This document shows positions 34,282 to 52,189 of a stretch of 61,062 nt of DNA, piece after piece. Position numbers and translations under genes: made by a program. This stretch comes from Lachnospiraceae bacterium (GTDB lineage: Bacteria; Bacillota; Clostridia; Lachnospirales; Lachnospiraceae), in assembly GCA_017470935.1 (NCBI GenBank), contig JAFUXG010000028.1:1-61062 (forward strand). Direction: 5' to 3'. The notes under the pieces were generated by a model. The model worked only from the letters and a program-made list of their open reading frames with translations. It ran no database searches and was not told the origin of the DNA. The number at the start of each line of letters is the position of its first letter. Within the stretch, counting starts at the first letter, position 1.

Positions 34282-34324
34282 TTTGATACACCTCCCCTGT
34301 GTTCATATTTTGATTGGTAATCAG

Positions 34325-34393: not shown

Positions 34394-34479
34394 GTAAATG
34401 TTGTAATTGCATTTCTTATTTCTGATTGAGAATCCAACAATTAAGCATGCATAACTAAATGTAATAAACTTAGCATAAG

Positions 34480-34550
34480 CTACCGAGCAGGGATTTGAAC
34501 CCCGAACTGCAGAGTCAGAATCTGCCGTGTTACCATTACACCACTCGGCA
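34480..34550 (-). tRNA. tRNA-Gln(CUG)
   Basis: Acceptor TGCCGAG/CTCGGTA with the T1-A72 pair usual for Gln, anticodon stem GCAGA/TCTGC with loop TTCTGAC (CTG). Confidence 0.9.
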
Positions 34551-34556
34551 TTGAAA

Positions 34557-34628
34557 CAGATAGTATAAGGTTTGAACTCATACCTCTGGTTTTGGAGACC
34601 AGCGTGCTGCCTGTTACACCAACTATCT
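34557..34628 (-). tRNA. tRNA-Trp(CCA)
   Basis: Acceptor AGATAGT/ACTATCT, anticodon stem CTGGT/ACCAG with loop CTCCAAA (CCA), discriminator G. Confidence 0.9.
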
Positions 34629-34690
34629 ATATAACAATAAGGCTGCAAAGCAAAGTGATTTGCAATCACATATTTGTTGTTTACCGAAAA

Positions 34691-34762
34691 CAGGGGTAAT
34701 GAGATTCGAACTCATAATCTTCGGCGTCAAAGACCGCTATGTTACCATTACACCATACCCCT
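34691..34762 (-). tRNA. tRNA-Gln(UUG)
   Basis: Acceptor AGGGGTA/TACCCCT, loop CTTTGAC (TTG), T-arm ATGAG/CTCAT. The anticodon stem GCGGT/GCCGA has a G-U and a mismatch. Confidence 0.85.
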
Positions 34763-34839
34763 AGGAATCGTTTTTGAATTGTTGTTGCCATTGATACTGT
34801 TGTTGCTTTTGCATATTTTTTCTCCTTTTATAGTCATAA

Positions 34840-34912
34840 TGGGCTTGAAGAGAATCGAACTCTCAACCTTCCGCTTAAGAGGCGGTTGCTCTGCCAATTG
34901 AGCTACAAACCC
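34840..34912 (-). tRNA. tRNA-Lys(CUU)
   Basis: Acceptor GGGTTTG/CAAGCCC, anticodon stem ACCGC/GCGGA with loop CTCTTAA (CTT), discriminator A. Confidence 0.9.
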
Positions 34913-34916
34913 ATGG

Positions 34917-34988
34917 TGGATGTGATGAGATTTGAACTCATAACTTACCGCTTAAAGGGCGGTTACGCTGCCATTGCGTCACACATCC
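34917..34988 (-). tRNA. tRNA-Lys(UUU) with C33
   Basis: Acceptor GGATGTG/CACATCC, anticodon stem ACCGC/GCGGT with loop CCTTTAA (TTT). Position 33 is C instead of the near-universal T. Confidence 0.85.
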
Positions 34989-34993
34989 ATGAA

Positions 34994-35065
34994 TACTAGC
35001 GGATGGAATTGAACCACCATAATCTGCTTATCAGACAGATACCCTAACCATTGGATCACGCTAGT
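34994..35065 (-). tRNA. tRNA-Ile(GAU)
   Basis: Acceptor ACTAGCG/CGCTAGT, anticodon stem TCTGT/GCAGA with loop CTGATAA (GAT), discriminator A. Confidence 0.9.
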
Positions 35066-35135
35066 AGAGTGATGATTTGCATTACGCAAATTGTATTTGT
35101 GTAAGTATTTGTAATATCAAAGAATTACTAATTAA

Positions 35136-35207
35136 TCGAGGTGAGGAGAGTTGAACTCCTGTCACTGGTTTATAAGACCAGCGCACTAACCGTTGTGCTA
35201 CACCTCA
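35136..35207 (-). tRNA. tRNA-Ile(UAU)
   Basis: Acceptor TGAGGTG/CACCTCG (1-72 is T-G), anticodon stem CTGGT/ACCAG with loop CTTATAA (TAT). Most bacteria read AUA with a lysidine-modified CAU anticodon, so an encoded UAU is uncommon. Confidence 0.85.
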
Positions 35208-35208
35208 G

Positions 35209-35280
35209 CCCTCAAGGCTGGATTCGAACCAGCAACCTTCTCATTAACAGTGAGCTGAACTACCATTGTTCTACCTGAGG
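35209..35280 (-). tRNA. tRNA-Asn(GUU)
   Basis: Acceptor CCTCAGG/CTTGAGG, anticodon stem GCTCA/TGAGA with loop CTGTTAA (GTT), T-arm GCTGG/CCAGC, discriminator G. Confidence 0.9.
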
Positions 35281-35286
35281 ATAAAG

Positions 35287-35359
35287 TGGAAAGTAGAGGA
35301 ATTGAACCTCTGCAGCATAGGGCTTCAACCTATCGCTCTACCATCTGAGCTAACTTTCC
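35287..35359 (-). tRNA. tRNA-Phe(GAA)
   Basis: Acceptor GGAAAGT/ACTTTCC, anticodon stem ATAGG/CCTAT with loop TTGAAGC (GAA), T-arm AGAGG/CCTCT. Confidence 0.9.
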
Positions 35360-35361
35360 AT

Positions 35362-35397
35362 AAAAAATACCGCCTGCCCATATTAGACAAACGGTAT
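35362..35397 (-). terminator. Hairpin with U-run between the 43-codon gene and tRNA-Phe
   Basis: On the minus strand ATACCG and CGGTAT pair across 19 bases and run into TTTTTTA. It could attenuate transcription before the Phe-to-Cys tRNA block or act as a processing site. Confidence 0.5.
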
Positions 35398-35427
35398 CTG
35401 AAATCATGTTCTATCATTTGACATTTA

Positions 35428-35559
35428 TCATGTACTTCGCATAGAATACCGGTCTAATATTGGCACCACAAAAGACTCTGTCTGCTTTTTAATATTAGCA
35501 AACTGAGCATCTTTGATCTGGCATATATTATTAAACCATTGTCCTCGTACTGCATACAT
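35428..35559 (-). CDS. 43-residue protein in the minus tRNA array
   Basis: ATG 35559 follows AGAAAGGAGAACAAATATC, an excellent ribosome site. The product begins MYAVRGQWFNNICQIKDAQF and ends near YSMRST; no family known. Its leader (AGAAAGGAGAACA-ATATC) is nearly the same as that of the 55-residue gene at 37319-37486. Both precede a hairpin and then tRNA genes. The AT-rich stretch 35560-35828 upstream holds nothing else I can support. Confidence 0.5.
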   Translation of the reverse strand: MYAVRGQWFNNICQIKDAQFANIKKQTESFVVPILDRYSMRST

Positions 35560-35828
35560 GATATTTGTTCTCCTTTCTAAGTAATTTGCTAAATGTTTGT
35601 TTCATATCGCTTGTGGCTTTATGTTTTTATTATTGCGACAATCAATTGTTTAAAATCGGTTAAACTATTTGTCTTGATTTTGCAATATTAATTATTGTTT
35701 ATGTAGCATTTTCTTTTATATGCATTATATATCGACTATAACGATCTAACAAGTAACCCTGTGAGTTAATAGTAGTTATAATTGTTCAGAATAAATGTTG
35801 TTTATTTGTTGTATGTATAATGCTGTGT

Positions 35829-36611
35829 CTATGTGATACAATCGTCAAGTCGTGCCGCCAACTCAAAGGCAAGCAATGCGATTTTTTCTTTGTAATCAAG
35901 TCTTATATTTCCCATGACACTTCTTGGCTCCCAGGCGGAGTGATCCAGATTATCACCTGCGTATAGATATTGGAAAAATTCAACTCCTCTGAAATCACAC
36001 ATAGCCTGCATGGCTGCACATTCCATTTCCACACAGACAGCTCCCATAGCTTTTCTCGATGCGATTTTCTTGGGTGTTTCTCTGTAAAAGGCGTCTGTTG
36101 TCCATGTTGTACCTTCCGTATAGGAATAGCCAAATTCATCACATATTGATTTGAACAGATCGGTGTGATGTTTATTCACCCTGATCATGTCAGATGCGGG
36201 AGCGTAGTGATAGCTTGTTCCCTCATCACGAATCGCTTTGGTTGGGATTATGATTCCGCAATCCTCAATGCTCTTATTGAGGACACCACAGTTTCCAAGC
36301 AGTATAATACGTTTTCCACCCAGTGCCAGCACATCCTCGAAAGTACCCACACAAGCGGGAGCACCTAGCCTTCCCTTGGTTAATGCGATACGCTTTCCCT
36401 TATAGGTAACCTCATATACCGGCCAGCTTCCATCCACATCATGGGTTTCGGCTATGATGCTTCCATTGAAAAACTCCGTAAGCCTGGCAAATAACTGGTG
36501 GGAAAATACTGCGACGATATTGTCCGGAAAATGTTCTATTTTCCCATACAACATACTTGGATTGATGATTTCATTTTTCGTGGAATCAAATTCTTCTAAA
36601 ATCATAAGCAT
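35829..36611 (-). CDS. Nucleoside phosphorylase (PNP/UDP family)
   Basis: About 260 residues. GKRIALTKGRLGAPACVGTFEDVLALGGKRIILLGNCGVL gives the phosphate and base-binding region, and VCVEMECAAMQAMC the ribose-binding MExE-type motif of purine/uridine phosphorylases. It would split a nucleoside with phosphate into base and ribose-1-phosphate. GGGGAGG at 36616-36622 lies before ATG 36611 (spacing 4) and ATG 36605 (spacing 10); the latter may be the true start. It sits inside the minus tRNA operon, between the interrupted Arg-like tRNA and the Phe block, which is an odd place for a salvage enzyme. Confidence 0.85.
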   Translation of the reverse strand: MLMILEEFDSTKNEIINPSMLYGKIEHFPDNIVAVFSHQLFARLTEFFNGSIIAETHDVDGSWPVYEVTYKGKRIALTKGRLGAPACVGTFEDVLALGGKRIILLGNCGVLNKSIEDCGIIIPTKAIRDEGTSYHYAPASDMIRVNKHHTDLFKSICDEFGYSYTEGTTWTTDAFYRETPKKIASRKAMGAVCVEMECAAMQAMCDFRGVEFFQYLYAGDNLDHSAWEPRSVMGNIRLDYKEKIALLAFELAARLDDCIT

Positions 36612-36698
36612 TCCTCCCCAAAGTAATTTCTCCATATCCTGATATTATGAGAAGCATTTTGTACATATCATAATATCGAAAACTTCGTTTTCTCATTA

Positions 36699-36760
36699 TC
36701 TTATCAGGTGGAAGTAAAGTCTTCGCTTTGCTCGACCTTCCTTTCCTGACCATAAGATAT
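36699..36760 (-). repeat. Dispersed palindromic repeat, copy B
   Basis: Read on the minus strand, TATCTTATGGTCAGGAAAGG continues through GGTCGAGCAAAGCGAAGAC to CTTCCACCTGATAAGA. Nearly the same 60 bases occur in the plus orientation at 44106-44166. The ends (TATCTTATGGTCAG and CTGATAAGATA) are partly complementary, so it folds into a long hairpin with a GAGCAAAGCGAA loop. Confidence 0.8.
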
Positions 36761-36785
36761 ATTATGGGGTGCCTGTTCCCATAAT
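36761..36785 (-). other. Hairpin with loop AACAGGCAC, first copy
   Basis: ATTATGGG (36761-36768) pairs with CCCATAAT (36778-36785); the 9-base loop reads AACAGGCAC on the minus strand. A second hairpin with the same loop and a different stem lies at 37219. Confidence 0.7.
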
Positions 36786-36802
36786 ATTATAAAATAGGAG
36801 AG

Positions 36803-36926
36803 TGGGCAATATAGGAATCGAACCTATAGTTCCCGGGTCTACGCTCCGCTCCGGTCCGCCGATAACAAGCATCCATCGGATGCTTTCGGCTGTAGCCGGG
36901 TGTTTTATCCATTAAACTAATCGCCC
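36803..36926 (-). tRNA. tRNA-Arg-like gene interrupted in the anticodon loop
   Basis: Acceptor GGGCGAT/ATTGCCC, D-arm GTTTAATGGATAAAAC (shared with the Arg(UCU) gene nearby, with A20), anticodon stem CCCGG/CCGGG and T-arm ATAGG/CCTAT are all intact. The anticodon loop is 59 bases instead of 7. The insert folds: CTAC/GTAG extends the stem, and AGCATCC-GAT-GGATGCT forms a hairpin. Removing about 52 bases could leave CTAC+GAC, an Arg(ACG) loop, but the exact junction cannot be decided by eye. Confidence 0.65.
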
Positions 36927-36979
36927 GTTGATTTGATGAACCATTCTAACTGACAGATATATTGATTCATCTACAATAG

Positions 36980-37051
36980 TTGCAGCAGCAGGATTTGAAC
37001 CTGCGGCTTTTTCCGTATGAAGGAACTACTCTGCCACTGAGTTATGCTGCA
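36980..37051 (-). tRNA. tRNA-Met(CAU)
   Basis: Acceptor TGCAGCA/TGCTGCA, anticodon stem GTTCC/GGAAA with loop TTCATAC (CAT), T-arm GCAGG/CCTGC. The anticodon stem lacks the three G-C pairs of an initiator, so elongator Met (or lysidine Ile) is more likely. Confidence 0.85.
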
Positions 37052-37056
37052 ATGAG

Positions 37057-37128
37057 TAGGCATAGAAGGAATTAAACCTTCATTGGCGGTTTAGAAGACC
37101 ACTGTTCTATCCATTAAACTATATGCCT
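37057..37128 (-). tRNA. tRNA-Arg(UCU)
   Basis: Acceptor AGGCATA/TATGCCT, anticodon stem GTGGT/ACCGC with loop CTTCTAA (TCT). The T-loop reads TTTAATT, so position 56 is T instead of the near-invariant C. Confidence 0.85.
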
Positions 37129-37138
37129 GTAATATGAG

Positions 37139-37210
37139 CGGCTCCAACGAGAATCGAACTCGTATCTCTGCTGTGACAGAGCAGTGTCCTAACCATTAAA
37201 CGATAGAGCC
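37139..37210 (-). tRNA. tRNA-Asp(GUC)
   Basis: Acceptor GGCTCTA/TGGAGCC, anticodon stem CTGCT/AGCAG with loop CTGTCAC (GTC), discriminator G. First tRNA of the minus-strand array. Confidence 0.9.
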
Positions 37211-40716: not shown

Positions 40717-43700
40717 ATGATGACTGAAGATAATAATGGTAATGGGATTTTTAATAATGCCGAAATGTACATTATCGAACAGCTTTTGACATATAGAAAA
40801 CAGTATATTAATTCCATATTGGGCAATGAGAAGGACAAGAAAAATGAGCTCTTGAAGCAAAAGGGCGAGTGGGATCATAAGCTCAATGGTTTCAAAAATG
40901 AAAGGGATGTCCGTGAAAGGATAAGACTTGAGGATATTAATGCCCAGATCGATCATTACAATAAGCAGAAGGAAAACGGCAGAAAAGACTATGTTAATGC
41001 CATGAGGGAGATTGACAACCGCATTGACCAGATCAAGAAGAAGATTGATGTGCTCGACAAGCTGAAGAGATTTGGCGGGGATGATCCGGTAAACATGCTG
41101 AAGGCAAAGAGATGTTTTCTTGATGCGGTTTCTCTGCTTGAGGAGGAGAAGAAGAAGCTTACCTCCGAATATGAGGGCTCTAATAATGAGCTTATGACGG
41201 AATATGAGAAAAGCATCAGTGATATAGAGAGTGCAACCAAGGGAAAGCTTCAGGGAATTGATGAAAGAAAACAGGCTGACAGCAGTGAATATGATGAGAT
41301 ATGCAAAGAGATTGAGAAAAAGCATGCGGAGATCACTTTAGACATTAACAGACAGTTTGAGAAGCTATTGAAGGAGAGTTCTGAAAAGCACAGTCTTACA
41401 GAATATCTTGAAGATGCAAAGAGTTATATGATATCAGGGAATAACTATGTATGCCCGTCTGATATGCCGAGTCATATCCATTTTGGCAGTATTTTTGTAA
41501 ATGTCAAAAAGACCTTTGAGACAGCAAAGGGCTTTGACAGGCTGTTTCTTAATTATGCTGGAGAGATAGTTTCAGATGATGAAAAAAGGATGTCTATTAA
41601 GGTGCCTTATATGCAAAGCTTTAAGGATGGGGTTTCACTGATAATCAAGCATAATGGCAGCAATCCTACAAAGGATATCCTTAAGGATATAGTGCTTAAG
41701 ACCTTGATGTATTTTCCTGCCGGCAAGGTGGTGACTACCATGATAGATCCCAAGGGCCTTGGTGGAAGCTTTGCTGGTCTTGGAAGACTGGGCGGAGATA
41801 AGAACATATGGCTCCGTGACACAAAGATATGGAGTGAGGAGACTGAGATTGAGGCTGCCATAGACAGATTCAGAGAGACTGCTGAGAATTGGATACAGAT
41901 ATATGGCGGGGATAAAGAAGCCCTTTTTGACAAGGAGCAGCTCAAGCTTCTTGCCATAATGGATTTCCCTCAGCATTTCAGCAGCAGGGCATTGGATGGC
42001 CTTTCTGCAGTGATACGCAACTGCCATGATACAGGTACTATTGTATATATAATGACGTCAAAGGAAGAGCTTGACAGGCTTCTTGCAGAAGCTCCGGAAA
42101 GATATGAGGATTTCAGGAACTGTGTTGTGATCGAGCAGCAGGCGGACAGAAATGATTTTGTCATAAAGGGGCATGAGCATTTTCATGTTACATTGGAAGG
42201 TCTTGGCGATATCAGGAGGAATGCAGGTGATATTGTTTCCGTTATTTCCAAGGGCGCCGATTCATACCAGCCTCCGATTATTCCATTTTCGTCTTTATAT
42301 GAAAATGATATGCTGGATTCAAATAACTGGTTTACTGGTAATCCAAGGAGCTTTTCTGTGCCTATCGGCTATCATTCATTTAATGCGCCAATGTCCTTAT
42401 CCTTTGGTGCGGTCAATGATACCAAACAGAATGTGCTTATAGAGGGAATGCCAAGGAGCGGTAAGACCAATCTGCTGCACAATATCATTTTGGGCGGTCT
42501 CATTAATTATAATCCCCAGTACCTTCAATTTTATCTGATCGACTTTAAGGATGGGGTTGAGTTCAGGGAGTATGCAGATTATTATCTTCCGGGGATTAAG
42601 GTGGTTGCAGTGGATGCCCAGAGAGAATTTGCACTTAACATTTTGGAAGAATTAGTCCTTGAAATGACAAGAAGAAATAATGAGTTTGGCAGGGTGGGAA
42701 CCAATGATATTGAGTCCTATAACAGGAGTGTGGGAGTAGCAGATATAATGCCGCGGATCGTTCTTATATTTGATGAGATAACAGCATTGTTTTCTAACAA
42801 TGATGCTGTTTCCGAGGCGTGCCTTGATCATTTGATCCGTATTCAGACCAAGGGCGGCAATGTGGGAGTCCACACCATACTTGCCACCCAGGATTATAAC
42901 CAGTGCAGCGGTGTTTCGGTGGAGCGTGACTTCTCTCTGGCAAAGGTGAGGATTGTGACCTTTGGAAGAGATGACACCAAATGCTCAATATTAAAGAGCA
43001 CTGACGGAATGGCTATCGGAAGGATAGGAAGTGCTCTGTTTAATGATAATGGAGGAGAGGCTTCTAATAACAGGTATCTCAGGGTTGCCACGAGCAAGCG
43101 GGAGGCACTGCCTGATGGGGAACCCACAAGACAAGATTATCTTGAAAGGCTTCACGAATATTACAGTCAGGCTGCTGATATATATTCAGAATATGAAACC
43201 CATGTGTGGACCCAGGACATGGAGAAGAATCCCAACATTTATTTTAACCGCGTGCTGTTGAATGCAGATGATGATCTTGCTTTAAGTGCAGTAACACTGG
43301 CGCCTGGGAATGATATTGGACTGCTTGTGGGTAATGGAATACGCAATAATTATCATACATTTGCACTTAAGAATGAAGACAAGGAAAATCTGCTGATTCT
43401 CGGTTTGGCAGAGGCTGGAAGCAGCCGGATGGTGGAGAGCGTTGTTATAAGCATGCTCCTTAGTATAGTCTGCGAGTCTGCAATCAAGGGCAAGACGGCA
43501 ACGCAGATATATATTCTTGACGGCTCTGTAAGGAGTGGCATAGGTCACAGGGATGATAAGAAGGTTAAGCTGTCGGATATGGCTGAGCTCTTTGATATTG
43601 TGAATTACTACAGGGTGCGTGACTTAAGCTTTATTGCACTTTTAAAGGATCTGTCTGCTGTTATCGATGAAAGGCTTGACAATGCTATGGAATACCAGCC

Positions 43701-44106
43701 CATTTATCTTTTCATCAATAAGATTGATGATATGGAGTTCTATTTCAGCAGCAGTGCTGATGTGGGAAAGGAAGACGGCAGAACACTGCTCAATAAGATA
43801 CTTTTCAGAGGAGCTTCGGTGGGAGTTCATGTGATAATAACAGGAGAGTATTATGATGTGGTTGTATCAAGGATACTTAATGACAGTGTAAATGAGTTCT
43901 TCAATAAGAGGATCGCAGTTCATTTAGAGGACAGTGCCGACCAGTTCCGGCTTGTGTATAAGAGGGAGCTTAGTACCACAGGTAATAATGACAGGATCGC
44001 GATCATGTATGACAGGATTTCAGAGGAGGCAGAGGTGGACATGTTCTCCGTATACGATATTCCTGACTATTCATGGGTGGAAGAGATAGCGGATGTGCTG
44101 ATGTGA
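40717..44106 (+). CDS. FtsK/SpoIIIE-type ATPase with coiled-coil N-terminus
   Basis: About 1129 residues from ATG 40717 (GGGGG nearby). Residues about 25-225 are a long Lys/Glu coiled coil. A linker domain follows, then an FtsK-type motor with Walker A GMPRSGKTN (about 577-585), Walker B VLIFDEITALF (about 685) and the ATQDYN sensor. A second RecA-like domain from about 880 has ILGLAEAGSSRMVES in place of a P-loop, so it is probably inactive, as in EssC-like proteins. No membrane segment is evident. It would move DNA or protein through a hexameric pore. It leads the cluster that continues to the AAA+ gene at 50387. Confidence 0.8.
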   Translation: MMTEDNNGNGIFNNAEMYIIEQLLTYRKQYINSILGNEKDKKNELLKQKGEWDHKLNGFKNERDVRERIRLEDINAQIDHYNKQKENGRKDYVNAMREIDNRIDQIKKKIDVLDKLKRFGGDDPVNMLKAKRCFLDAVSLLEEEKKKLTSEYEGSNNELMTEYEKSISDIESATKGKLQGIDERKQADSSEYDEICKEIEKKHAEITLDINRQFEKLLKESSEKHSLTEYLEDAKSYMISGNNYVCPSDMPSHIHFGSIFVNVKKTFETAKGFDRLFLNYAGEIVSDDEKRMSIKVPYMQSFKDGVSLIIKHNGSNPTKDILKDIVLKTLMYFPAGKVVTTMIDPKGLGGSFAGLGRLGGDKNIWLRDTKIWSEETEIEAAIDRFRETAENWIQIYGGDKEALFDKEQLKLLAIMDFPQHFSSRALDGLSAVIRNCHDTGTIVYIMTSKEELDRLLAEAPERYEDFRNCVVIEQQADRNDFVIKGHEHFHVTLEGLGDIRRNAGDIVSVISKGADSYQPPIIPFSSLYENDMLDSNNWFTGNPRSFSVPIGYHSFNAPMSLSFGAVNDTKQNVLIEGMPRSGKTNLLHNIILGGLINYNPQYLQFYLIDFKDGVEFREYADYYLPGIKVVAVDAQREFALNILEELVLEMTRRNNEFGRVGTNDIESYNRSVGVADIMPRIVLIFDEITALFSNNDAVSEACLDHLIRIQTKGGNVGVHTILATQDYNQCSGVSVERDFSLAKVRIVTFGRDDTKCSILKSTDGMAIGRIGSALFNDNGGEASNNRYLRVATSKREALPDGEPTRQDYLERLHEYYSQAADIYSEYETHVWTQDMEKNPNIYFNRVLLNADDDLALSAVTLAPGNDIGLLVGNGIRNNYHTFALKNEDKENLLILGLAEAGSSRMVESVVISMLLSIVCESAIKGKTATQIYILDGSVRSGIGHRDDKKVKLSDMAELFDIVNYYRVRDLSFIALLKDLSAVIDERLDNAMEYQPIYLFINKIDDMEFYFSSSADVGKEDGRTLLNKILFRGASVGVHVIITGEYYDVVVSRILNDSVNEFFNKRIAVHLEDSADQFRLVYKRELSTTGNNDRIAIMYDRISEEAEVDMFSVYDIPDYSWVEEIADVLM

Positions 44107-44166
44107 TATATCTTATGGTCAGGAAAGGAAGGTCGAGCGAAGCGAAGACTTTACTTTCACCCGATA
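44106..44166 (+). repeat. Dispersed palindromic repeat, copy A
   Basis: TATATCTTATGGTCAGGAAA through GGTCGAGCGAAGCGAAGAC to CTTTCACCCGATAATA lies right at the stop of the FtsK-like gene. It matches copy B (36699-36760, opposite orientation) with a few changes. Confidence 0.8.
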
Positions 44167-44184
44167 ATAATGGGGAGGTCTGAA

Positions 44185-44484
44185 ATGGCGTATAGTTTGG
44201 ATGAGGCTGAGAAGCTGGTAAAGGAAGGAATAGAATTGACATCTGATATTATGGATGGAATATATTCTTCGAAAAGGAAGAAGATAGTTGTTCTTCTGGT
44301 TGTTTTATTGGTAGTACTGGCTTTTGGGGCGGCAGGCATATGGATTGCTGGATACCCTAGTTATTCAGTTGCCATAGGTGTGGGAGGAGTTTTGATACTT
44401 ATTGTTCTTATGGTACATGGTATAAAGAAGCTGCAGGGACTGAAAAGAGAGCTGGATGCGCTCTATCATTATATGAGTTATTAG
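44185..44484 (+). CDS. Small membrane protein with two transmembrane helices
   Basis: 99 residues from ATG 44185, which follows GGGGAGGTCTGAA. Residues about 30-50 (KKIVVLLVVLLVVLAFGAA) and 55-80 (YSVAIGVGGVLILIVLMVHG) are membrane helices with a short loop; the N-terminal 27 residues are acidic and the tail basic, ending YHYMSY. It is the only obvious membrane protein of the cluster and might anchor the ATPases. Confidence 0.7.
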   Translation: MAYSLDEAEKLVKEGIELTSDIMDGIYSSKRKKIVVLLVVLLVVLAFGAAGIWIAGYPSYSVAIGVGGVLILIVLMVHGIKKLQGLKRELDALYHYMSY

Positions 44485-44498
44485 CGGGGGACAGATGT

Positions 44499-44972
44499 AT
44501 GCAGCGTGAAGAGAATATAAGTGAAAATAATATAAAGCTTATAGAGGGATACAGAAACGCGCTTTCTTCTATGCCGGATTCATTGATGGAGGCAAAGGAG
44601 TGTGTAAAGAGAAAGTATGCAGGGCTTGGGAAAAATTCAGACATACAGGCCTTGAACATGCCCGATGCTATTGGAAATTCCGAAATGCAGGCTTTGAGCA
44701 TGCCTGACAATGCCAGGAATTTTGGGTCACAGAATTTAGACAGATATGGCGGTGCTAAAGCTCCCACAGCAGCAGATTCAACAAAAGCAGGAAGGACAGA
44801 AGTGGATGATAATGCACCCTTTTACGAGGTGCTTTACAGATTAAAGCTGTCAGCGGATATAGAAAGCTGTAAGAAGGCAGCGACAATGCTTAGGGATTAT
44901 CTTACGGAAAAGCCAGGGTGTGTTATGGGTGAAACAATGCTTGAAGTGATCGGTGAACAGTTAGAGGATTGA
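44499..44972 (+). CDS. Unknown 157-residue cluster protein
   Basis: Starts at ATG 44499, 14 bases after the membrane-protein stop. A helical N-terminus (NNIKLIEGYRNALSSMPDSLMEAKECVKRKY) is followed by a low-complexity middle with two IQALNMPD/MQALSMPD copies, then a helical end. The 3' end is one base from the next start. No family recognised; operon position implies a role with the FtsK-like ATPase. Confidence 0.6.
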   Translation: MQREENISENNIKLIEGYRNALSSMPDSLMEAKECVKRKYAGLGKNSDIQALNMPDAIGNSEMQALSMPDNARNFGSQNLDRYGGAKAPTAADSTKAGRTEVDDNAPFYEVLYRLKLSADIESCKKAATMLRDYLTEKPGCVMGETMLEVIGEQLED

Positions 44973-44973
44973 T

Positions 44974-46029
44974 ATGGATTATTTGGGTGTAATGTATCTG
45001 GCTAATTTCATAAAAAATGAAGTGGATGACCGGCAGGAGGCCATTGACGGCATATATAAGAATGCTGTGCAGGAATCGGAATCATTTAAGGAATTAGAAG
45101 AGCTGAAAAACAGGATAATTTTTTTTGATAATGGAGCAGGCGGCACACTCTTTAAGGAATGTAATGAGCTTATGAGAGACATTTACGCATCGCCTGATAA
45201 TAACAGGGATATTCTTTACAGAATGAAAAATCTTGCAAAGGATATTAGGACTGAAGAGGCAAGATCCATGAAGGTGTTAGAGGAGCTTGGCGCAGATGGA
45301 CTTTGCCTGGTGGACAAGGAGACGGGGGATAGGTTTGGGAAAGCCCTTAATATTCTTGCATCCTCGCTTATATATATGCTGCTGATAACAGAAGGGGCGG
45401 CGGGGATCGATGGGCTTTCATGGAATGGCAATAATTCACTTAATGTTAAGCTTGCCGCGTTGAATAATGATATCCTGGGAAGATTATCAGGTAGTGCCAC
45501 AGATATTTTTTTCTGGAAAATGATGAGAGCGCAGGATGACAGGACAATAAGCTTTTGTGGGTACAGGTACCAGGTGGAGTATATTTCCTATGAGGAGTAC
45601 CTTGCCGGCAAGGAGGCAATGAAACCCATTGGCGATAATCTGTATATGGCGGGATTTGTAGCAGAGGAAGACGCGCTGCAGACGGTCTATGTGGGTATGG
45701 GGAATATTGTTCCCTGCAGGGCAAGGGAGTGTATAGAAAGGCTTAAGGATAACAGGCTTGTGAAAGATGATTATTTCGGACAGGTTACAGAGGAGGTGGC
45801 GGCTTATAATGACAAGGGACTTTTGAATCTGCTTGAAATTATGTCTGAAGGGAAAATGTATGTTGTCTCTCCAAGGAAGGCCTGTGACCTTATGAATCAG
45901 TTTGTAAATGCAAGGGAGATACACTATAGAAAAAGACGGGGACTGTGCCTTTTTTGCGGAAGGAAGCTTATCTCAGGGCTTGTGTGCAAGGGACATTTTG
46001 ATACTCACAAGAGAGTGTACTATCAATAG
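44974..46029 (+). CDS. Unknown 351-residue cluster protein with C-terminal zinc finger
   Basis: ATG 44974 comes right after the previous stop, so translation is coupled. The N-terminal half is helical (DDRQEAIDGIYKNAVQESESF). The middle has a beta-rich section YLAGKEAMKPIGDNLYMAGFVAEEDA. The end, LCLFCGRKLISGLVCKGHFDTH, is a Cys2-Cys-His zinc-binding motif. No named family is recognised. Confidence 0.6.
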   Translation: MDYLGVMYLANFIKNEVDDRQEAIDGIYKNAVQESESFKELEELKNRIIFFDNGAGGTLFKECNELMRDIYASPDNNRDILYRMKNLAKDIRTEEARSMKVLEELGADGLCLVDKETGDRFGKALNILASSLIYMLLITEGAAGIDGLSWNGNNSLNVKLAALNNDILGRLSGSATDIFFWKMMRAQDDRTISFCGYRYQVEYISYEEYLAGKEAMKPIGDNLYMAGFVAEEDALQTVYVGMGNIVPCRARECIERLKDNRLVKDDYFGQVTEEVAAYNDKGLLNLLEIMSEGKMYVVSPRKACDLMNQFVNAREIHYRKRRGLCLFCGRKLISGLVCKGHFDTHKRVYYQ

Positions 46030-46045
46030 TTGAAAGGATTGTGAA

Positions 46046-46624
46046 ATGACAGATGGGGGCATGGTCAATCTGGCAAGAATATATTATCCGGTTACTGTCT
46101 TAGGACCGGGAAAAAGGGTTGGAATATGGCTTGCCGGCTGTGATCGTAACTGTCCGGGCTGTATATCGCCGGAGCTTAAGACAAGCAGCAGCGGGACATA
46201 TGTTGAAGTGACTGAGATCATGAAGAATATTCAGAAGCTGTGTTCCGATGCAGAGGGCTTTACCATTTCGGGAGGAGAACCATTTACTTCGCCGGAGGGG
46301 CTTTGTGCCCTCGTAAGGGAGATTTCCAAAATGTCTGAGGACATTATTATTTTCACTGGCTATAGGCTTTCTGAGCTTATGGAAATGAGAGATGACAATG
46401 TGGATTATATTTTAGACAATATAAGCGTGCTGGTGGATGGACCATACATTGAAGCGCTTAATGATGGCAGGGGGCTTAGGGGCTCCTCAAACCAGAATAT
46501 ACATGTTTTCAAAAATGCAAAGCGGTACGTCAATCTAAGTGATTGTGAGCGGAGTCTTCAGGTTGTGGTGAATAATGACAGGGTAATGACCATAGGAATG
46601 CCGGTGGTGAATGAAGATGATTAA
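46046..46624 (+). CDS. Radical-SAM activase-like protein (4Fe-4S single cluster domain)
   Basis: 192 residues. GIWLAGCDRNCPGCISPEL carries the CxxxCxxC cluster motif, followed by FTISGGEPFTSPEGL and IIIFTGYRLSEL, as in NrdG/PflA-type activases; SAM-binding GGEP is intact. Small proteins of this kind generate a glycyl radical or a deoxyadenosyl radical for a partner. No glycyl-radical enzyme is in the window, so the partner may be a cluster protein. ATG 46046 follows AAAGGATTG. The end overlaps the kinase start by 14 bases. Confidence 0.85.
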   Translation: MTDGGMVNLARIYYPVTVLGPGKRVGIWLAGCDRNCPGCISPELKTSSSGTYVEVTEIMKNIQKLCSDAEGFTISGGEPFTSPEGLCALVREISKMSEDIIIFTGYRLSELMEMRDDNVDYILDNISVLVDGPYIEALNDGRGLRGSSNQNIHVFKNAKRYVNLSDCERSLQVVVNNDRVMTIGMPVVNEDD

Positions 46625-48290
46625 CAGTGATGAGACAATAATAGATCAAAACCGAATTAACAGTGATGAAACCATTATGGAGCAAAGGCGGATAAACGTT
46701 GATAAAGCGATGGCTGGGCAGAGCCGGATAAATAGTGACGCAACCGTACTGGATCAGGGTGATTTGCTGGAAGGCGGAGTGAAAGCTGTAGGCGGGACGC
46801 CGGGGACTCCTGATGACTTTATGCTTGAGGACTATCACGTGACGGGGAGGCTGTCAAGGGGAGCTCAGGCTGAAGTGTTTCTTGCGGAGAAGGATAAGAA
46901 AAAATATGTGGTCAAGCTTTATGGACGTGACTGGCAGCCTGTGAAGCTGCTCAGGGATTTTTTTAAGGAGAACCGGCACGATAATATTATGCCGGTTATA
47001 GTGTCAGGCAGGGAGCTTGGAAGATATTATGAGATCTATCCTTATTATGAATACGGAACATTGGAGCATTATGTGAGGGAGAATGGAACTCTTTCAGTTG
47101 AGTTTATCAAAAAATATGTGGTGCCCTCAGTTAATGAAGGGCTTCACTTTCTGCATACTAACCGCATTGTCCACTGTGATATCAAGCCTGTCAACTTGTA
47201 TCTTGATAAAAATGGTGACAATTGGAGAGTGGTAATAGGGGATCTTGGCTCCTGCAGAGTGATGGACAGTGACGGGCTGGTGAGGGCGTCTCTGGAGGGG
47301 ACGGTGAATTTCTCTGTGCCGGTGGAGGATTATTATGGAGTTAAAACCTTTCCAAAGGAGTATGATTATGCTTCGTTGGGAATCACCTTATACAGCCTTT
47401 ATACAAATGCGCGTCTTATGGAGGGAATGGAGCTTGATGAAAGAGCCCGGCTGTGGGACAGAAGTGTTGAGATACCCGTTGATGACATAAGACTTAAGTC
47501 ATTGCTTTCAGGACTTATAGACAAGGATTTTGAAAATGTATGGGGATATGAGGAGCTTAAGAGATGGAGTGGGACCGGCTGGAATTCCAGCAGGAAAAGA
47601 AGAACAGCAAGGCGGCAGGACAAGAAGCCTTCACCACTCATATTTGGTAATATAAATGGCAGCATGACAAGGGTGTCAACGCTCCATGAATTAACTGACA
47701 CATGCAAAAAAAACTGGGAGCTTGCCAGAACGGTTATTAAAAGATTTGATACCCTGCAATTTATCAGGCAGTTTGATTCAGGCCTTTATGACAGGGTGGA
47801 GAAGGAGCTTAAAAGCAGGAGCAGTAATGAAGATATCATATTGTTCAGGGCTTTATATACAATAGAAAAAGGTAACAGGATATGCTACAGGGGTGAGGAT
47901 ATGGGCACCCTCTCTGATTTCCTTGAAAGGCTGGAAAACAGGGATGAGTTAGCTATTGAATTTGTGATATACGATCTGTTCACATTTTATATGGAGATAA
48001 TGGGCGCTGAATCATCTGACATAGACAGGGTTGACGAGCTGGTAAAGCTTAACAGGCTTAACGCACTTGGAATGCATGGACTTATTGAGGGTATCTGCAG
48101 AGCCTTTAGGGATGACCAGCATTTGAAGCTGGAAGAGGCATGCATTGATAACATGAATGACTTTGTGGATTATATTGCAGATAAAAGCCCAAGGGATATT
48201 AATATGCTTTTGAAAAAGGAAAAGGTACAGGCATGGTTTATCGCCATGGGCTTTGCAAAGGAAGTTGAGGAATTAAAGACGCTGATATAA
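46611..48290 (+). CDS. Ser/Thr protein kinase with N-terminal phospho-repeat region
   Basis: 559 residues. Residues 4-51 are four 12-residue repeats (INSDETIIDQNR, INSDETIMEQRR, INVDKAMAGQSR, INSDATVLDQGD). The kinase domain follows: GRLSRGAQAEVF glycine loop (about 78), Lys in YVVKLY (about 101), IVHCDIKPVNLYLD catalytic loop and GDLGS replacing DFG. The APE segment is degenerate (SVPVE). The catalytic Lys, Asp and Asn are present, so it is probably active. The C-terminal 230 residues are helical and unknown. It would phosphorylate the cluster's proteins and perhaps its own repeats for binding by the FHA protein. Confidence 0.85.
   Translation: MKMINSDETIIDQNRINSDETIMEQRRINVDKAMAGQSRINSDATVLDQGDLLEGGVKAVGGTPGTPDDFMLEDYHVTGRLSRGAQAEVFLAEKDKKKYVVKLYGRDWQPVKLLRDFFKENRHDNIMPVIVSGRELGRYYEIYPYYEYGTLEHYVRENGTLSVEFIKKYVVPSVNEGLHFLHTNRIVHCDIKPVNLYLDKNGDNWRVVIGDLGSCRVMDSDGLVRASLEGTVNFSVPVEDYYGVKTFPKEYDYASLGITLYSLYTNARLMEGMELDERARLWDRSVEIPVDDIRLKSLLSGLIDKDFENVWGYEELKRWSGTGWNSSRKRRTARRQDKKPSPLIFGNINGSMTRVSTLHELTDTCKKNWELARTVIKRFDTLQFIRQFDSGLYDRVEKELKSRSSNEDIILFRALYTIEKGNRICYRGEDMGTLSDFLERLENRDELAIEFVIYDLFTFYMEIMGAESSDIDRVDELVKLNRLNALGMHGLIEGICRAFRDDQHLKLEEACIDNMNDFVDYIADKSPRDINMLLKKEKVQAWFIAMGFAKEVEELKTLI
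46620..46763 (+). repeat. Four 36-bp coding repeats in the kinase gene
   Basis: Each 36-bp unit encodes I-N-S/V-D-x-x-x-x-x-Q plus two residues. Three units place Thr three residues before an acidic residue (TIID, TIME, TVLD); the third unit has lost the Thr. Confidence 0.85.
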
Positions 48291-48343
48291 ACTATATGGT
48301 ATGCAGCAGCTTATATTACATGTGATATACGGAGGTTAGTGAA

Positions 48344-49549
48344 ATGAGCCAGTCTTTTTTTAAATATGAAACCCAGGAAGAAATATGCGAGCGTCTCAAG
48401 CGTTTGAGATTCAAAATGCTTAAGGATCAGCTGCGTAAGGCCAGATATCATATGGATAGACAGAAGGAGGCGCTTGATGATAGTCTTAAGAAAAATGTCA
48501 AGGGTGCCGAGACGGGCTTTGCATTTTCAGATTCGGCAGTGAGTGATGTCCTGACAGAGGATATGGGAACAGATATTGATAAGGATATGACGGACATTGC
48601 TGAAGTCAGTGGCCTTTACGGAAAGTTTAATGAAAACAACGATAAGATTGATGGATTGAAGGATGGGAGCGGAGCTTTATCTGCAGATGTAAAACGCAGA
48701 GAGAGGATGAATCTGTCCCATTACCTTGAAGCGGATAAGAGGTTTCAGGATGAAGCAGCAGCAAGACTTAAAGAAATACTTGCAAGGCTTAATGAGAGAG
48801 ATCCTGATTCAGACAAGGCAAGGGCAGAATATGAAAGGCTTAAGGATAATATAGACGCCATAATGTCTAATGCCTCATATTCCTCGGAACAGATTGTCAG
48901 TATGGTGGAGAAACGGGTCACCATTTACATTGAGAACCGTAATTATGATAATTCTGCACTGGATGAGGATCTGCTGCTGGATTACAAAACCCTGTGCATA
49001 CTCTTAGGCGAGGAGGAGCAGGAGCTTTCTGTGGAACAGCTAAAGAGCAGGGTTGACAATATGCTTGAGGAGTATCTGGCACGTAATGACAAAGAGGTGG
49101 TGGCAGAGCTTATAAATGAAGCCCTTGTCAATCTGGGAATGAAGGTAGACAGCTGCTGTGTCCTTGATGGAGAGACGGAGGGGGAACTGTACTCCTCAGG
49201 TGAGGGAGGAAAATGCAAGGTGTTTGTCTCCTGCAATGCTTCAGGGGTTATGATTGAGCCTGTTAATACTGATACAGGCGCTGCAGAGGAGGAAATCCTT
49301 GAATCACAGAGAAGCATATGTAAAGCGGAGCAAAGCATTGTGGAGGAGGCACTCAAAAGCGGTATTGTACTTAAAAAGGTATATTCCAACGAACATCCTG
49401 TGGAGATGATGGCAACGGAAAAGGATATACAGGTAAATGAAAGCGCGAAGGAAGCTTCAGATGACAGATTTGAGAGAATAAGAGATTACAATAGGATGAA
49501 AAGAAGCAGACGCAGACGTGAGAAGGCAAGGGAAATGAGAAATGAGTAA
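48344..49549 (+). CDS. Unknown coiled-coil cluster protein
   Basis: 401 residues from ATG 48344 (ACGGAGGTTAGTGAA). Largely helical with Lys/Glu/Arg-rich coiled coil at 15-50 and 130-190, and a basic C-terminus (MKRSRRRREKAREM). The middle has VSCNASGVMIEP. No domain recognised. The stop overlaps the FHA start by 8 bases. Confidence 0.65.
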   Translation: MSQSFFKYETQEEICERLKRLRFKMLKDQLRKARYHMDRQKEALDDSLKKNVKGAETGFAFSDSAVSDVLTEDMGTDIDKDMTDIAEVSGLYGKFNENNDKIDGLKDGSGALSADVKRRERMNLSHYLEADKRFQDEAAARLKEILARLNERDPDSDKARAEYERLKDNIDAIMSNASYSSEQIVSMVEKRVTIYIENRNYDNSALDEDLLLDYKTLCILLGEEEQELSVEQLKSRVDNMLEEYLARNDKEVVAELINEALVNLGMKVDSCCVLDGETEGELYSSGEGGKCKVFVSCNASGVMIEPVNTDTGAAEEEILESQRSICKAEQSIVEEALKSGIVLKKVYSNEHPVEMMATEKDIQVNESAKEASDDRFERIRDYNRMKRSRRRREKAREMRNE

Positions 49550-50288
49550 ATGTATTGTGTGTGAATGTGCAAGTATATTAACATACGAGCCTCCTAAGGA
49601 GAGACCGCCATTAAAATGTCCTAACTGCGGCAGGGATACGAGGCATTATGCCTCCATGAAGGAGGATGACCCCAGGGTCAGGATGCTGGTGGAGAAGTAT
49701 AAGACACGTCTTGGTGATACAGAGGCTGCAGCAGGCGTGGCAGACAGTGGCGTTACGCAGCCTGCAGCAGGTGTGGCAGACAGTGGCGTTACGCAGGCTG
49801 CAGCAGGCGTGGCAGACAGTGGCGTTACGCAGCCTGCAGCCGGCATGGAAGGCAGCAGCATTAGGCAGCCTGCAGCTGGTGTGGCAAGCTATGGCATTAC
49901 GCAGTCTGCAGACGATATGCCAGGCAGCGGCGGGAAGCAGCAAGAGGGGAAGCCACAGTATTGTCTTGTGAGCAAGGACGGAGAAGTGCAAATAAAAATC
50001 CCAGATGGGGGCGGAGTTATAGGCAGAACTGCAGTCGGAGGAGAGGAGCTTGCACACAACGGAAGGATAAGCAGAGAGCATGTTAAGCTTACTCCTGCAA
50101 AACGGGCCTTAGGAGTCATGGCAGAGGATCTCAGTGCCAATGGAACATTTGTTGACGGGAGAAGACTTACAAAGAATGATCGTGAGTTTGTGGTTATCGG
50201 AAGCGTAATCAAAATGGGCGGAGAAGAATTTGTCTTGGAGATGGTAGAGCCCAAGCAAGGATGCGGAACTGGAACAGTATCTTTGTGA
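49542..50288 (+). CDS. Zinc-ribbon and FHA-domain protein
   Basis: 248 residues. An N-terminal zinc ribbon (CECA and CPNCG) is followed by six 12-residue repeats (AAAGVADSGVTQ-like, residues about 62-133) and a C-terminal FHA domain with GGGVIGRTAVGGEEL, ISREHVKLTP and DLSANGTFVDGRRL; the Arg, Ser, His and Asn that bind phosphothreonine are present. It would read the phosphorylated Thr repeats of the kinase two genes upstream and carry them to partners. Confidence 0.85.
   Translation: MSKCIVCECASILTYEPPKERPPLKCPNCGRDTRHYASMKEDDPRVRMLVEKYKTRLGDTEAAAGVADSGVTQPAAGVADSGVTQAAAGVADSGVTQPAAGMEGSSIRQPAAGVASYGITQSADDMPGSGGKQQEGKPQYCLVSKDGEVQIKIPDGGGVIGRTAVGGEELAHNGRISREHVKLTPAKRALGVMAEDLSANGTFVDGRRLTKNDREFVVIGSVIKMGGEEFVLEMVEPKQGCGTGTVSL
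49725..49940 (+). repeat. Six 36-bp coding repeats in the FHA gene
   Basis: Units such as CCTGCAGCAGGTGTGGCAGA (continuing to GTTACGCAG) repeat six times. The first three are nearly identical, the last three diverged. They encode a flexible Ala/Gly/Val linker. Confidence 0.9.
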
Positions 50289-50387
50289 AGGGCGACCGGA
50301 GAGCAAGTTCTGAAGCAAAGCGTAAGAACGCTCTCAGCTGTCTAGGAGCCCAAGCAAGGATGCAGAACTGGAATAGGAGGTTTGTGA
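50247..50387 (+). repeat. 42-bp direct repeat around a 57-bp insert between FHA and AAA+ genes
   Basis: GAGCCCAAGCAAGGATGC... occurs at 50247-50288 (end of the FHA gene) and at 50346-50387 (leader of the AAA+ gene), about 85 percent alike. Between them 50289-50345 folds as GAGAGC/GCTCTC with inner GTTCT/AGAAC and a GAAGCAAAGCG loop. It looks like a small element whose entry duplicated its flank. Confidence 0.75.
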
Positions 50388-52189
50388 TGAATAATAATCT
50401 TGTGGAGAAATGGCAGAAGGACCTGGATGTCTATAAGGATATATGCACATATTTTATCGTTGAGGGGAACATATTCGATAAGCAGCCCTTTTATGACCAG
50501 GAGGAGATGGCATACCTGCCTGTGTCCTTGTCGGAATATCTGTACCGATATCTTATTGATATCGGCTATGATATGGTCATGTTTCATAACGTGGTTGAGG
50601 GATTTCACAACAGGTTTGATGATGGGGTGAAGGATAGATTTTTAAAGTGCTCCGGACAAAAATGTAATGAGCCGAGGTCTCTCGGTGAGGATATTACTAC
50701 TGCAATCAATGTGCTCAATCAGGGGGATATGGCAAGGGCAGTCATTTTTGAATTTGCAAACACTATTGCCCTTGAGCCGGATCGTCTTTCTGATGATGAA
50801 AATGCTAATTATATCAAGCTGATGCAGTCATCTCTTGAGCCGGTGACGGCAATGGGAACAGGTGGAAAATTTCTTCGGAACATTGTTTTTCTTATGGTGG
50901 AGAAGGCTAATGATATTCCTGCATGGTTTTATCTTAACAATCCACAGGTGAGGGTCCTTACAGTTACAAGGCCTGAGAAGAGTGTGAGGTGTGAGATAAT
51001 AAGATCACGATTATATATGATCGAGGGAGAGGAGTCATTGTCCGATGATGAACGGGAGAAGATAATTAATGAGTTCGCACTTCTTACTGATGGAATGCCC
51101 ATTGAAGATATTGACAGTATAATTAAGATCTGTGATACACAGCATATGGATGTGAGACATATCAAAAATGCTATCAAGCTTTTCAAATACGGTCAGGTGG
51201 AAAGCCACTGGGATAAGATTGACGGTAATATATTAAAGGATATTGACAAGAGGATTAATAAGAGAGTAAAGGGCCAGCCTGAGGCGATTAACCGTGCAGC
51301 TGCCATTGTACGAAGGGCGTGTCTGGGACTATCCGGGCTTCAGGGCGGAGCCCACAGCAGACCAAAGGGAATCCTGTTTCTTGCAGGCCCTACGGGTACA
51401 GGCAAGACAGAGCTTGCCAAAAGCCTTGCAGAAATAATATTTGGTGATGAGGATTTTCTCATAAGGTTTGATATGAGCGAGTATGGACAATCCCACTCTG
51501 ATCAGCGCCTTATAGGTGCTCCTCCGGGATATGTTGGTTACAGCACCGGCGGACAGCTTACCAATGCGGTAAAGCAAAAGCCCTTTTGCATTTTATTATT
51601 CGATGAGATAGATAAGGCGCACCCGTCGATCCTTGATAAGTTTCTGCAGATACTTGAGGATGGCAGGCTTACGGATTCCTCCGGGGAGACAGTATATTTT
51701 ACGGAGACCCTTATCATTTTTACCAGCAATATAGGTATCAATAAGACGGATGAATATGGTAACAGGGTTGCGAATGTATCCTATGGGGAGCCCTACGGGG
51801 ATGTTAAGAGAAAGATTAATGATGAGATAGAAAACTATTTTGCCAAGATCAACCGCGCTGAGCTTCTTAATCGAATCGGTGAGAATATAGTGGTGTTTGA
51901 CTACATAAGGGATGATGTTGCTTATGAGATCTTTGAGTTAAAGCTTAACTCGATCCTAGATTCAATATATGAGAATAAGAGGATACGCTTTACCCTGTCA
52001 GAAGAATTTAAGAGTACTCTTTTTGCTGAGGCAAAGGGGAATCTTAAGAACGGCGGACGGGGTATCGGCAATGTACTTGAAACTGTACTTCTAAATGGTA
52101 TCTCGGATATATTGGTGGAGGTTATTGGCAAGGAAATTGATGCAATAGAAATAACAGGAACAGATGGAGGAAGATTGTTATATGATTAA
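50387..52189 (+). CDS. ClpB-like AAA+ ATPase with degenerate first ATPase domain
   Basis: 600 residues from ATG 50387 (AATAGGAGGTTTGTG). Residues about 1-270 look like a first AAA domain without Walker A, with lid-like FALLTDGMPIEDIDSIIKIC. A full ClpB-D2-type domain follows: GPTGTGKTE (about 333-341), FDMSEYGQSHSDQRLIGAPPGYVGY with pore-loop GYVG, ILLFDEIDKAH, ILEDGRLTDSSG and FTSNIG. A Clp D2-type C-terminal lid ends it. It should be a hexameric protein-remodelling motor like ClpV or ClpB but lacks an N-terminal Clp domain. Last gene of the cluster; a terminator follows at 52277. Confidence 0.85.
   Translation: MNNNLVEKWQKDLDVYKDICTYFIVEGNIFDKQPFYDQEEMAYLPVSLSEYLYRYLIDIGYDMVMFHNVVEGFHNRFDDGVKDRFLKCSGQKCNEPRSLGEDITTAINVLNQGDMARAVIFEFANTIALEPDRLSDDENANYIKLMQSSLEPVTAMGTGGKFLRNIVFLMVEKANDIPAWFYLNNPQVRVLTVTRPEKSVRCEIIRSRLYMIEGEESLSDDEREKIINEFALLTDGMPIEDIDSIIKICDTQHMDVRHIKNAIKLFKYGQVESHWDKIDGNILKDIDKRINKRVKGQPEAINRAAAIVRRACLGLSGLQGGAHSRPKGILFLAGPTGTGKTELAKSLAEIIFGDEDFLIRFDMSEYGQSHSDQRLIGAPPGYVGYSTGGQLTNAVKQKPFCILLFDEIDKAHPSILDKFLQILEDGRLTDSSGETVYFTETLIIFTSNIGINKTDEYGNRVANVSYGEPYGDVKRKINDEIENYFAKINRAELLNRIGENIVVFDYIRDDVAYEIFELKLNSILDSIYENKRIRFTLSEEFKSTLFAEAKGNLKNGGRGIGNVLETVLLNGISDILVEVIGKEIDAIEITGTDGGRLLYD

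Follow-up and report, generated by a model that had tools for sequence, protein, structure and literature searches.

Ser/Thr kinases, FHA proteins and Clp-type AAA+ proteins occur together in the threonine phosphorylation of type VI secretion (PpkA, PppA, Fha, ClpV), and in the Agrobacterium type VI system the Fha protein binds a phosphothreonine of TssL, as described in the part of PMC3953482 available to us. In the available parts of two other papers, modular NTPase-centred conflict systems, in which PIN domains with SF1 helicases and a radical-SAM component occur, have been described (Kaur et al. 2020, PMC7159879) and HerA/FtsK-dependent defence has been proposed (PMC10853773). Here we analyse contig JAFUXG010000028.1 of a Lachnospiraceae bacterium (assembly GCA_017470935.1; genome of 3.06 Mb, 77.75% complete), the whole of which (61,062 nucleotides) is referred to as the window. 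Nine co-directional open reading frames (ORFs) at 40717-52189 on the + strand, whose presence as a real gene set is confirmed, encode an FtsK/EssC-like ATPase (A), three proteins of no known family (B, C and D), an NrdG-like radical S-adenosylmethionine (radical-SAM) protein (E), a Ser/Thr kinase (F), a further family-less protein (G), an FHA protein (H) and a Clp-like AAA+ protein (I). This cassette is one variant of a wider family defined by the Clp-like protein; no described system matched it in the libraries and literature covered, and it looks undescribed.

The core of the family is a ClpB-type AAA+ protein with a P-loop-less N-terminal half and an NrdG-like radical-SAM protein, usually with a coiled-coil partner. 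It often occurs with a Ser/Thr kinase and a zinc-ribbon-FHA protein, and other variants have a PP2C phosphatase. When the N-terminal portion of the Clp-like protein is used as a profile, matches occur in 13 of 398 Bacillota genomes and in 6 of 138 relatives, the source genome included. Relatives on plasmids were found by tblastn in Aristaeella, Moellerella, Photobacterium, Acinetobacter, Leisingera, Rhizobium, Geminocystis and others, of which seven were examined; the core is present on plasmids of Pseudomonadota and Cyanobacteriota, where its neighbours include integrase, ArdA and HsdR-like genes. We compared 25 loci besides the window, four of them from the FtsK-like search and 21 from the Clp-like search, using profiles partly built from these same loci. 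The family radical-SAM gene is present in 22 of them, a G-type protein in 22 (16 of the window/kinase kind and six of the helicase kind), the kinase in 14, the FHA protein in 13 (a weak match in L058 was not counted) and PP2C in seven. The radical-SAM gene of L064 is about 9 kb distant. Loci with no radical-SAM match are L048, L052 (contig end) and L057, and those with no G match are L047 (a 5.7-kb contig), L064 and L065. The window-type FtsK is found in 4/25 loci, exactly those found by the FtsK-like search. Since the FtsK-like protein has no match at the other 21 loci, all of which carry the Clp-like gene, FtsK is ruled out as the organising gene. The original prediction, in which FtsK was the first part listed, is revised: FtsK is one of several exchangeable modules, and the heart of the system is the Clp-like AAA+ and radical-SAM pair, often with the kinase and FHA protein.

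Trees of the Clp-like proteins (22 rows; L015, L052, L054 and L056 left out) and of the radical-SAM proteins (20 rows; L054, L056 and L064 left out) both recover the helicase variants and the FtsK variants each as a single group, while the kinase variants need two changes in each tree. The FtsK group joins the kinase variants with support below the starred level, and L060 and L064 form long branches. A viral origin was also considered and set aside, as scans of viral contigs gave no relative. In phage records, a plasmid-type Clp protein had 61 matches, none over more than 80% of the query, and those listed cover about half of it. In E. coli, A has no blastn match, and for two plasmid relatives the best 20 matches listed each cover 8-9% of the query and are all labelled ClpB or Clp ATP-binding subunit.

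The profile of the Clp-like proteins matches the second rings of ClpC and ClpB among solved structures (3e-97 and 9e-95, respectively). Walker A, Walker B, the pore loop, FTSN and the sensor-2 GGR are kept in all 22 aligned proteins, and none of the 22 has a P-loop in its first 270 residues. The ClpP-binding loop, which follows the pattern [LIVMF]G[FL], is found in 0/22 between the FTSN and R[PA]E motifs. I shares with ClpB and ClpC the second AAA+ ring domain with its pore loop, Walker motifs and sensors, but it has no Pfam match to the Clp N-terminal or middle domains, carries GGR where the sensor-2 of ClpB and ClpC is GAR, lacks the ClpP loop and, with no P-loop in its first half, does not have the two active AAA+ domains of ClpB, ClpC and ClpA. 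It scores below the cut-offs of the ClpB, ClpV and ClpA models (217 of 884.95 bits for ClpV), and higher with ClpB than with ClpV. The alignment to ClpA already begins before the second ring, at profile position 196, which hints that the N-terminal half of I may end in an AAA-like lid.

The radical-SAM protein E belongs to the radical SAM superfamily by its Pfam match (Radical_SAM, 1.2e-07; score of 32.6 against a cut-off of 29.5). The CX3CX2C motif is present in 23/23 radical-SAM proteins of the family and a TISGGEP-like motif, defined by our own pattern, in 18/23. E had been proposed to be a radical-SAM activase. Its NrdG-like radical-SAM character holds, and it shares the CX3CX2C core with NrdG and other glycyl-radical activases; however, it differs from these in scoring below the NrdG cut-off (96.1 of 126.1 bits), in being encoded by a family gene of the Clp-like loci (22/25), and in having no NrdD or other glycyl-radical enzyme identified by Pfam among the nine proteins. 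No glycyl-radical site was found by eye in the Clp-like protein, the only one inspected.

The kinase F has the catalytic Lys, HxD and DxG motifs of an active Ser/Thr kinase and is matched by the PADLOC model mad6 at 4.2e-24. The phosphothreonine-binding residues GR and SxxH are present in 7/7 aligned FHA proteins, and H has a Pfam score of 28.1 against a cut-off of 20.7. FHA domains prefer threonine motifs such as those in the kinase tails. We counted these in 12 of 15 kinases (L054, L056 and L065 left out), with tail limits set by eye and 5000 shuffled controls. The five tails of the FtsK variants contain eight T[IV]x[DE] motifs against 0.40 expected (0/5000 shuffles as high) and 11 T..[DE] motifs against 3.07 (0/5000), and seven other tails contain five T[IV]x[DE] motifs against 0.78 (2/5000). 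The C-terminal 120 residues of G match the G proteins of kinase variants (hhalign 94.4%, E 9e-08).

Protein A, which begins with a coiled coil identified by eye, has 4nh0 as its best match among solved structures (4.6e-27); this is listed as "Cell division FtsK/SpoIIIE" and we take it to be an EccC. It is followed by YukB (1.5e-25), EccC5 (2.1e-18) and FtsK (2ius; 5.9e-10). A shares an active ATPase domain with EccC, EssC and YukB, but it is far below the type VII cut-offs (EccCb 73.1 of 346.55, EssC 57.1 of 778.4 and EccCa 52.9 of 509.15 bits), has the coiled coil in place of a membrane domain and has a single P-loop. PADLOC models SspH (2.7e-23) and mad8 (3.7e-17) match the same ATPase domain. 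As had been predicted, four proteins (104, 157, 351 and 401 residues) have no Pfam or NCBIfam match above cut-off, and only that of 401 residues has any PADLOC match, a weak one (0.0036). D has no match to solved structures up to E=10. Another kind of EssC-like FtsK lies beside E1/ThiF-like genes in L011, L016 and L026, with JAB-like and WXG100-like small proteins in addition in L016 and L026 (all by eye). In L025 and L024/L027, the gene of a HerA-like ATPase (54% identical between them) precedes that of an EssC-like FtsK; between the two lies a coiled-coil protein in which a metallopeptidase-like motif is seen by eye.

The full cassette recurs. A search with the FtsK-like protein over 144 relatives found matches in five, the source genome (G000) included. 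In three of these, all from the genus of the window (G001, G004 and G022; loci L013, L014 and L015), the FtsK-like protein is 61-66% identical and all nine genes are present in the same order, the contig of L015 ending inside the Clp gene; G051 has a distant match. A family-wide profile search over 397 genomes gave four matches (own, G420, G352 and G280). G420, from another genus (L024), has the FtsK-like protein at 5e-148 and nine genes in order, of which seven proteins align at 25-51% identity, B and C being assigned by position; G352 and G280 have distant FtsK genes in other gene settings. Across the four other cassettes identities are 25-78% where aligned, and two helices are seen in the window's B and its four counterparts. 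Carriers amount to 4/26 genomes of the genus in the collection, provided that all 26 were in the search of 144 relatives, and a profile of D matches the own genome only among 391 genomes of the class. The flanks differ (names by eye): PriA in L015, a MATE exporter in L014, a two-component/ABC set in L013, and Dus-like and metallo-beta-lactamase-fold genes in the window, while the G420 cassette is flanked by a HerA-like ATPase (Pfam DUF87) and two other genes. No clean empty site was found; in G013 and G014 the two genes that lie right of the cassette (metallo-beta-lactamase-fold and BlaI-like, by eye) are retained next to different left-hand neighbours. As the order is the same in four other genomes with different flanks, the cassette behaves as a unit. 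This answers in the affirmative the check set by the original prediction, whether the genes co-occur elsewhere.

The part attached to the core varies among loci, from the EssC-like FtsK and membrane hairpin of the window to a helicase with PIN, a DUF4011/REase helicase, and PglZ with GmrSD. Among the helicase variants, L058, L060 and L066 have AAA_11/AAA_12 helicase proteins by Pfam, the L062 helicase matches PADLOC MkoA at 7e-102, and the label of L063 and L067 rests only on the annotation "AAA domain-containing protein". The adjacent protein has PIN_4 in five of the six loci (L058, L062, L063, L066 and L067) and no family in L060, where the 738-residue protein in its place (10608-12824) has by eye an RX4H HEPN-like motif, RNEFQH, and no Pfam family. 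L061 and L065 have DUF4011 and MTES_1575 restriction endonuclease (REase) domains on their helicase proteins, that of L065 with a kinase part in the same reading frame, and in L059 PglZ and GmrSD proteins follow the PP2C gene. L054 has a type III CRISPR set (RAMPs, Csm4, Cas10/Csm1; 13183-19825) upstream of the core on the same strand, the order being the CRISPR set and a family-less protein, then the core; L056 has ORFs of similar sizes. In L053, a TPR protein with a CHAT-like end and a sigma-factor-like gene (6502-12106, by eye) lie beside the core on the other strand.

The tests made place the cassette outside both the type VI and the type VII systems. Its likeness to type VI threonine phosphorylation extends to the Ser/Thr kinase, the FHA protein and the Clp-type AAA+ protein, and to PP2C in 7/25 loci. 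The kinase, FHA and ClpV-like proteins had been read as type VI post-translational control, and the logic does resemble it; however, I is closer to ClpB than to ClpV and has a different N-terminal half, a radical-SAM protein is added, and of the set of kinase, FHA, PP2C and ClpV the window has the first two, with PP2C absent and ClpV below its cut-off. The sheath protein VipB/TssC is found in none of the five cassette genomes, three of which are less than 90% complete (the control matched E. coli only, 1/14). There is likewise no WXG100 protein among the nine, and the predicted lack of WXG100 and sheath genes in the cassette is borne out; WXG100 genes over the cut-off occur in 2/5 cassette genomes (G001 and G420), elsewhere in the genome. 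For Mokosh, Hhe, BREX-type (PglZ), GmrSD and MADS systems, the likeness is to single components (MkoA, mad6, PglZ, GmrSD), seen in neighbour proteins or in the kinase, and PADLOC 2023 gave single-domain matches only, and no full system, for the window set and the scanned L061 and L062 proteins. Among the NCBIfam matches listed for the nine window proteins, none reaches its own cut-off. The systems in the available part of Kaur et al. 2020 (PMC7159879) are vWA-MoxR and related ones, with no Clp-radical-SAM-kinase-FHA cassette described, and the cassette is not described in the available parts of PMC10853773 and PMC13092281. The gene set was not recognised among the papers listed by searches of the open-licence literature of PubMed Central, a scope that excludes preprints, subscription papers, supplements and catalogues later than PADLOC 2023.

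From the composition, gene order, intact catalytic motifs and neighbour exchange observed across these loci, we infer function, radical-SAM substrate and motor cargo as follows. On balance, and with reservation, we favour a mobile, phospho-regulated unfoldase system in which the kinase and FHA protein license an unfoldase/radical-SAM core that switches the attached machine. A trigger would activate kinase F, which would phosphorylate threonines (T-I/V-x-D/E) in its own N-terminal tail and probably on partners too. FHA protein H would bind these phosphothreonines and recruit I; the Agrobacterium Fha-TssL pair is the nearest worked example of this kinase-FHA step. I would thread or remodel a protein through its GYVG pore without ClpP, and E may make a radical modification on a partner, licensing assembly or activity. 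The licensed core would then switch the attached module, in the window perhaps a membrane-tethered EssC-like motor that moves protein (or nucleic acid), and in other variants a nuclease or helicase. The role is most likely in conflict with phages, mobile elements or competitors, favoured because of the sparse and mobile distribution, the nuclease modules and the CRISPR neighbour; of the proposed translocation, conflict or remodelling functions, translocation is one of several possibilities, and neighbours in the wider family point more to conflict or defence. A bolder version, which we regard as doubtful, is that these loci represent a widespread undescribed class of conflict machine. Its Clp-type unfoldase would be licensed by kinase/FHA signalling together with a radical-SAM modification and would in turn arm effectors that can be exchanged, in the window an EssC-like motor and at other loci helicase/PIN or restriction-type nucleases; the target of the radical enzyme would be one of the machine's own proteins, perhaps the unfoldase. 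We know of no other system with a radical-licensed unfoldase.

Several observations weigh against a licensed core that switches exchangeable modules. A four-sequence AlphaFold run of I had a mean predicted local distance difference test (pLDDT) score of 43.2 and gave no usable model, and at L048 and L057 the 19.9 kb covered show no family radical-SAM gene. The threonine-motif enrichment is weakened because the sequences are related and the tail limits hand-set; moreover, T..[DE] in the seven distant tails stands at 12 against 6.35 expected (90/5000 shuffles as high), and T[IV]x[DE] is absent from the tails of L024, L049, L053 and L059. Comparisons of the G proteins of the window and kinase variants with those of helicase variants (hhalign 0.4% and 21.7%) give no support for kinship. 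The PglZ/GmrSD linkage is known from one locus only. Some loci lack an attached module: transposase-type neighbours are present in L050 (one scanned) and L055 (two scanned, the other family-less), and no attached module was recognised by eye at L047, L048, L051, L053 and L057, in stretches partly limited by contig ends. The window cassette itself has no recognisable nuclease, toxin or PP2C.

It is unlikely, in our estimate, that the cassette instead exports proteins in the manner of type VII systems, under a type VI-style control by threonine phosphorylation, with A as its motor, B as the membrane anchor, I for recycling the machine and the cargo encoded elsewhere. A does score best with EccC/YukB-type chains in solved structures, its distant relatives in L016 and L026 sit with the WXG100-like, E1/ThiF-like and JAB-like genes, and the genes ahead of the G420 cassette encode the HerA-like ATPase (DUF87), a small protein with a coiled coil and a large one in which a metallopeptidase-like motif is seen by eye; an ADP-ribosyltransferase/metallopeptidase label for this large neighbour was a by-eye guess and was dropped, there being no Pfam match. 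However, WXG100 genes over the cut-off, present in G001 and G420, are not found in G000, G004 and G022, no cargo gene is seen linked to the cassette in the genus, A has one P-loop only, and the G420 HerA and large protein have no match in G000, G001, G004 and G022 (77.75, 92, 86 and 78% complete, respectively). The helicase/PIN variants, moreover, share the core without such a motor.

The motor could also serve a DNA-directed defence, in which A pumps or grips invading DNA, as has been proposed for the HerA/FtsK ATPases of DndH/Ssp-type systems, and I, E, F and H regulate it. The SspH and mad8 matches of A, the HerA/FtsK-dependent defence proposed in the available part of PMC10853773, and the DNA/RNA enzymes of other variants are in line with this, but it appears quite unlikely given that Pfam finds no nuclease or DNA-binding domain in the nine proteins and that A scores better with YukB/EccC5 than with FtsK. 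Very improbable is a non-conflict role in stress-response quality control, as a phospho-regulated disaggregase with a radical-SAM or redox-sensing subunit: the resemblance of I to the D2 of ClpB/ClpC and the core loci with no recognised attached module (L050, L055) suit it, whereas the sparse distribution, differing flanks, plasmid carriage beside mobile genes, nuclease modules and CRISPR neighbour do not. Chance clustering of unrelated genes is practically negligible, as the same gene order is seen in four other genomes, making five with different flanks, and the Clp and radical-SAM trees are similar.

The features of the cassette are given in Table 1. Pfam, NCBIfam and PADLOC models were used to assign the window proteins, with Pfam matches over cut-off to FtsK_SpoIIIE (A, 1.9e-24), Fer4_12 (E, 1.2e-29), Pkinase (F, 3.7e-20), FHA (H, 2.8e-06) and AAA_2 (I, 5.9e-50). 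Nine co-directional genes with overlapping starts had been reported as one unit; direction and unity stand, and overlap is confined to two pairs, radical SAM/kinase and 401-residue/FHA. An overlap between the FHA and Clp genes, with a Clp start at 50261, proved false: the family alignment and an AGGAGG ribosome-binding site agree on the start in Table 1, the upstream one arising because a 42-nt repeat carries an extra ATG. The starts listed for B and the kinase are those preferred. The linker of H contains a 36-bp tandem repeat in about five copies (49726-49941).

Table 1. Genes and repeats of the nine-gene cassette (window coordinates).
Feature	Position	Strand	Remarks
A: FtsK/EssC-like ATPase, 1129 residues	40717..44106	+	N-terminal coiled coil (by eye); one P-loop, GMPRSGKT, at residue 577
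B: small protein, two membrane-like helices	44185..44484	+	ORF open from 44170; first called as 104 residues
C: 157-residue protein, no family	44499..44972	+	
D: 351-residue protein, no family	44974..46029	+	C-terminal Cys/His cluster CLFC..VC..H
E: NrdG-like radical-SAM protein, CX3CX2C	46046..46624	+	
F: Ser/Thr kinase	46617..48290	+	Catalytic Lys (VVKLYG), HxD (HCDIKPVN), DxG (GDLG); C-terminal tail
36-bp repeat, kinase N-tail	46620..46691	+	Codes threonine motifs INSDETIIDQ / INSDETIMEQ; candidate FHA docking sites
G: 401-residue protein	48344..49549	+	C-terminal ~120 residues related to coiled-coil G proteins of kinase variants
H: zinc-ribbon (by eye) and FHA protein	49542..50288	+	Repetitive linker
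I: ClpB/ClpC-D2-type AAA+ protein	50387..52189	+	P-loop-less N-terminal half; pore loop GAPPGYVGY; sensor-2 GGR
42-nt direct repeat, H/I junction	50247-50288 and 50346-50387	+	Spacing 99 bp; copies 88% alike

Elsewhere in the window, the start of the contig (322-6331) has two adjacent integrase-like ORFs (by eye), a DUF3644 protein and, by eye, type I-like N6-methylase and specificity genes. ARAGORN finds 21 tRNA genes at 32780-37210, first on the + and then on the - strand. For an Rfam tRNA match of 124 nt (36803-36926, - strand), the only tRNA that ARAGORN finds has 52 nt inserted in its anticodon loop, which is unusual for a bacterium.

If the favoured reading of a phospho-regulated unfoldase system is true, the family would be a modular system present in three phyla and absent as a unit from the defence and secretion libraries covered, and it would tie radical-SAM chemistry to a protein unfoldase. 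It would also suggest that bacteria lacking a type VI sheath place a Clp ATPase under phospho-control resembling that of type VI systems. With its conserved gene order and a five-gene form carried on plasmids (L063, of the Photobacterium toruni type), the system can be tested in laboratory E. coli.

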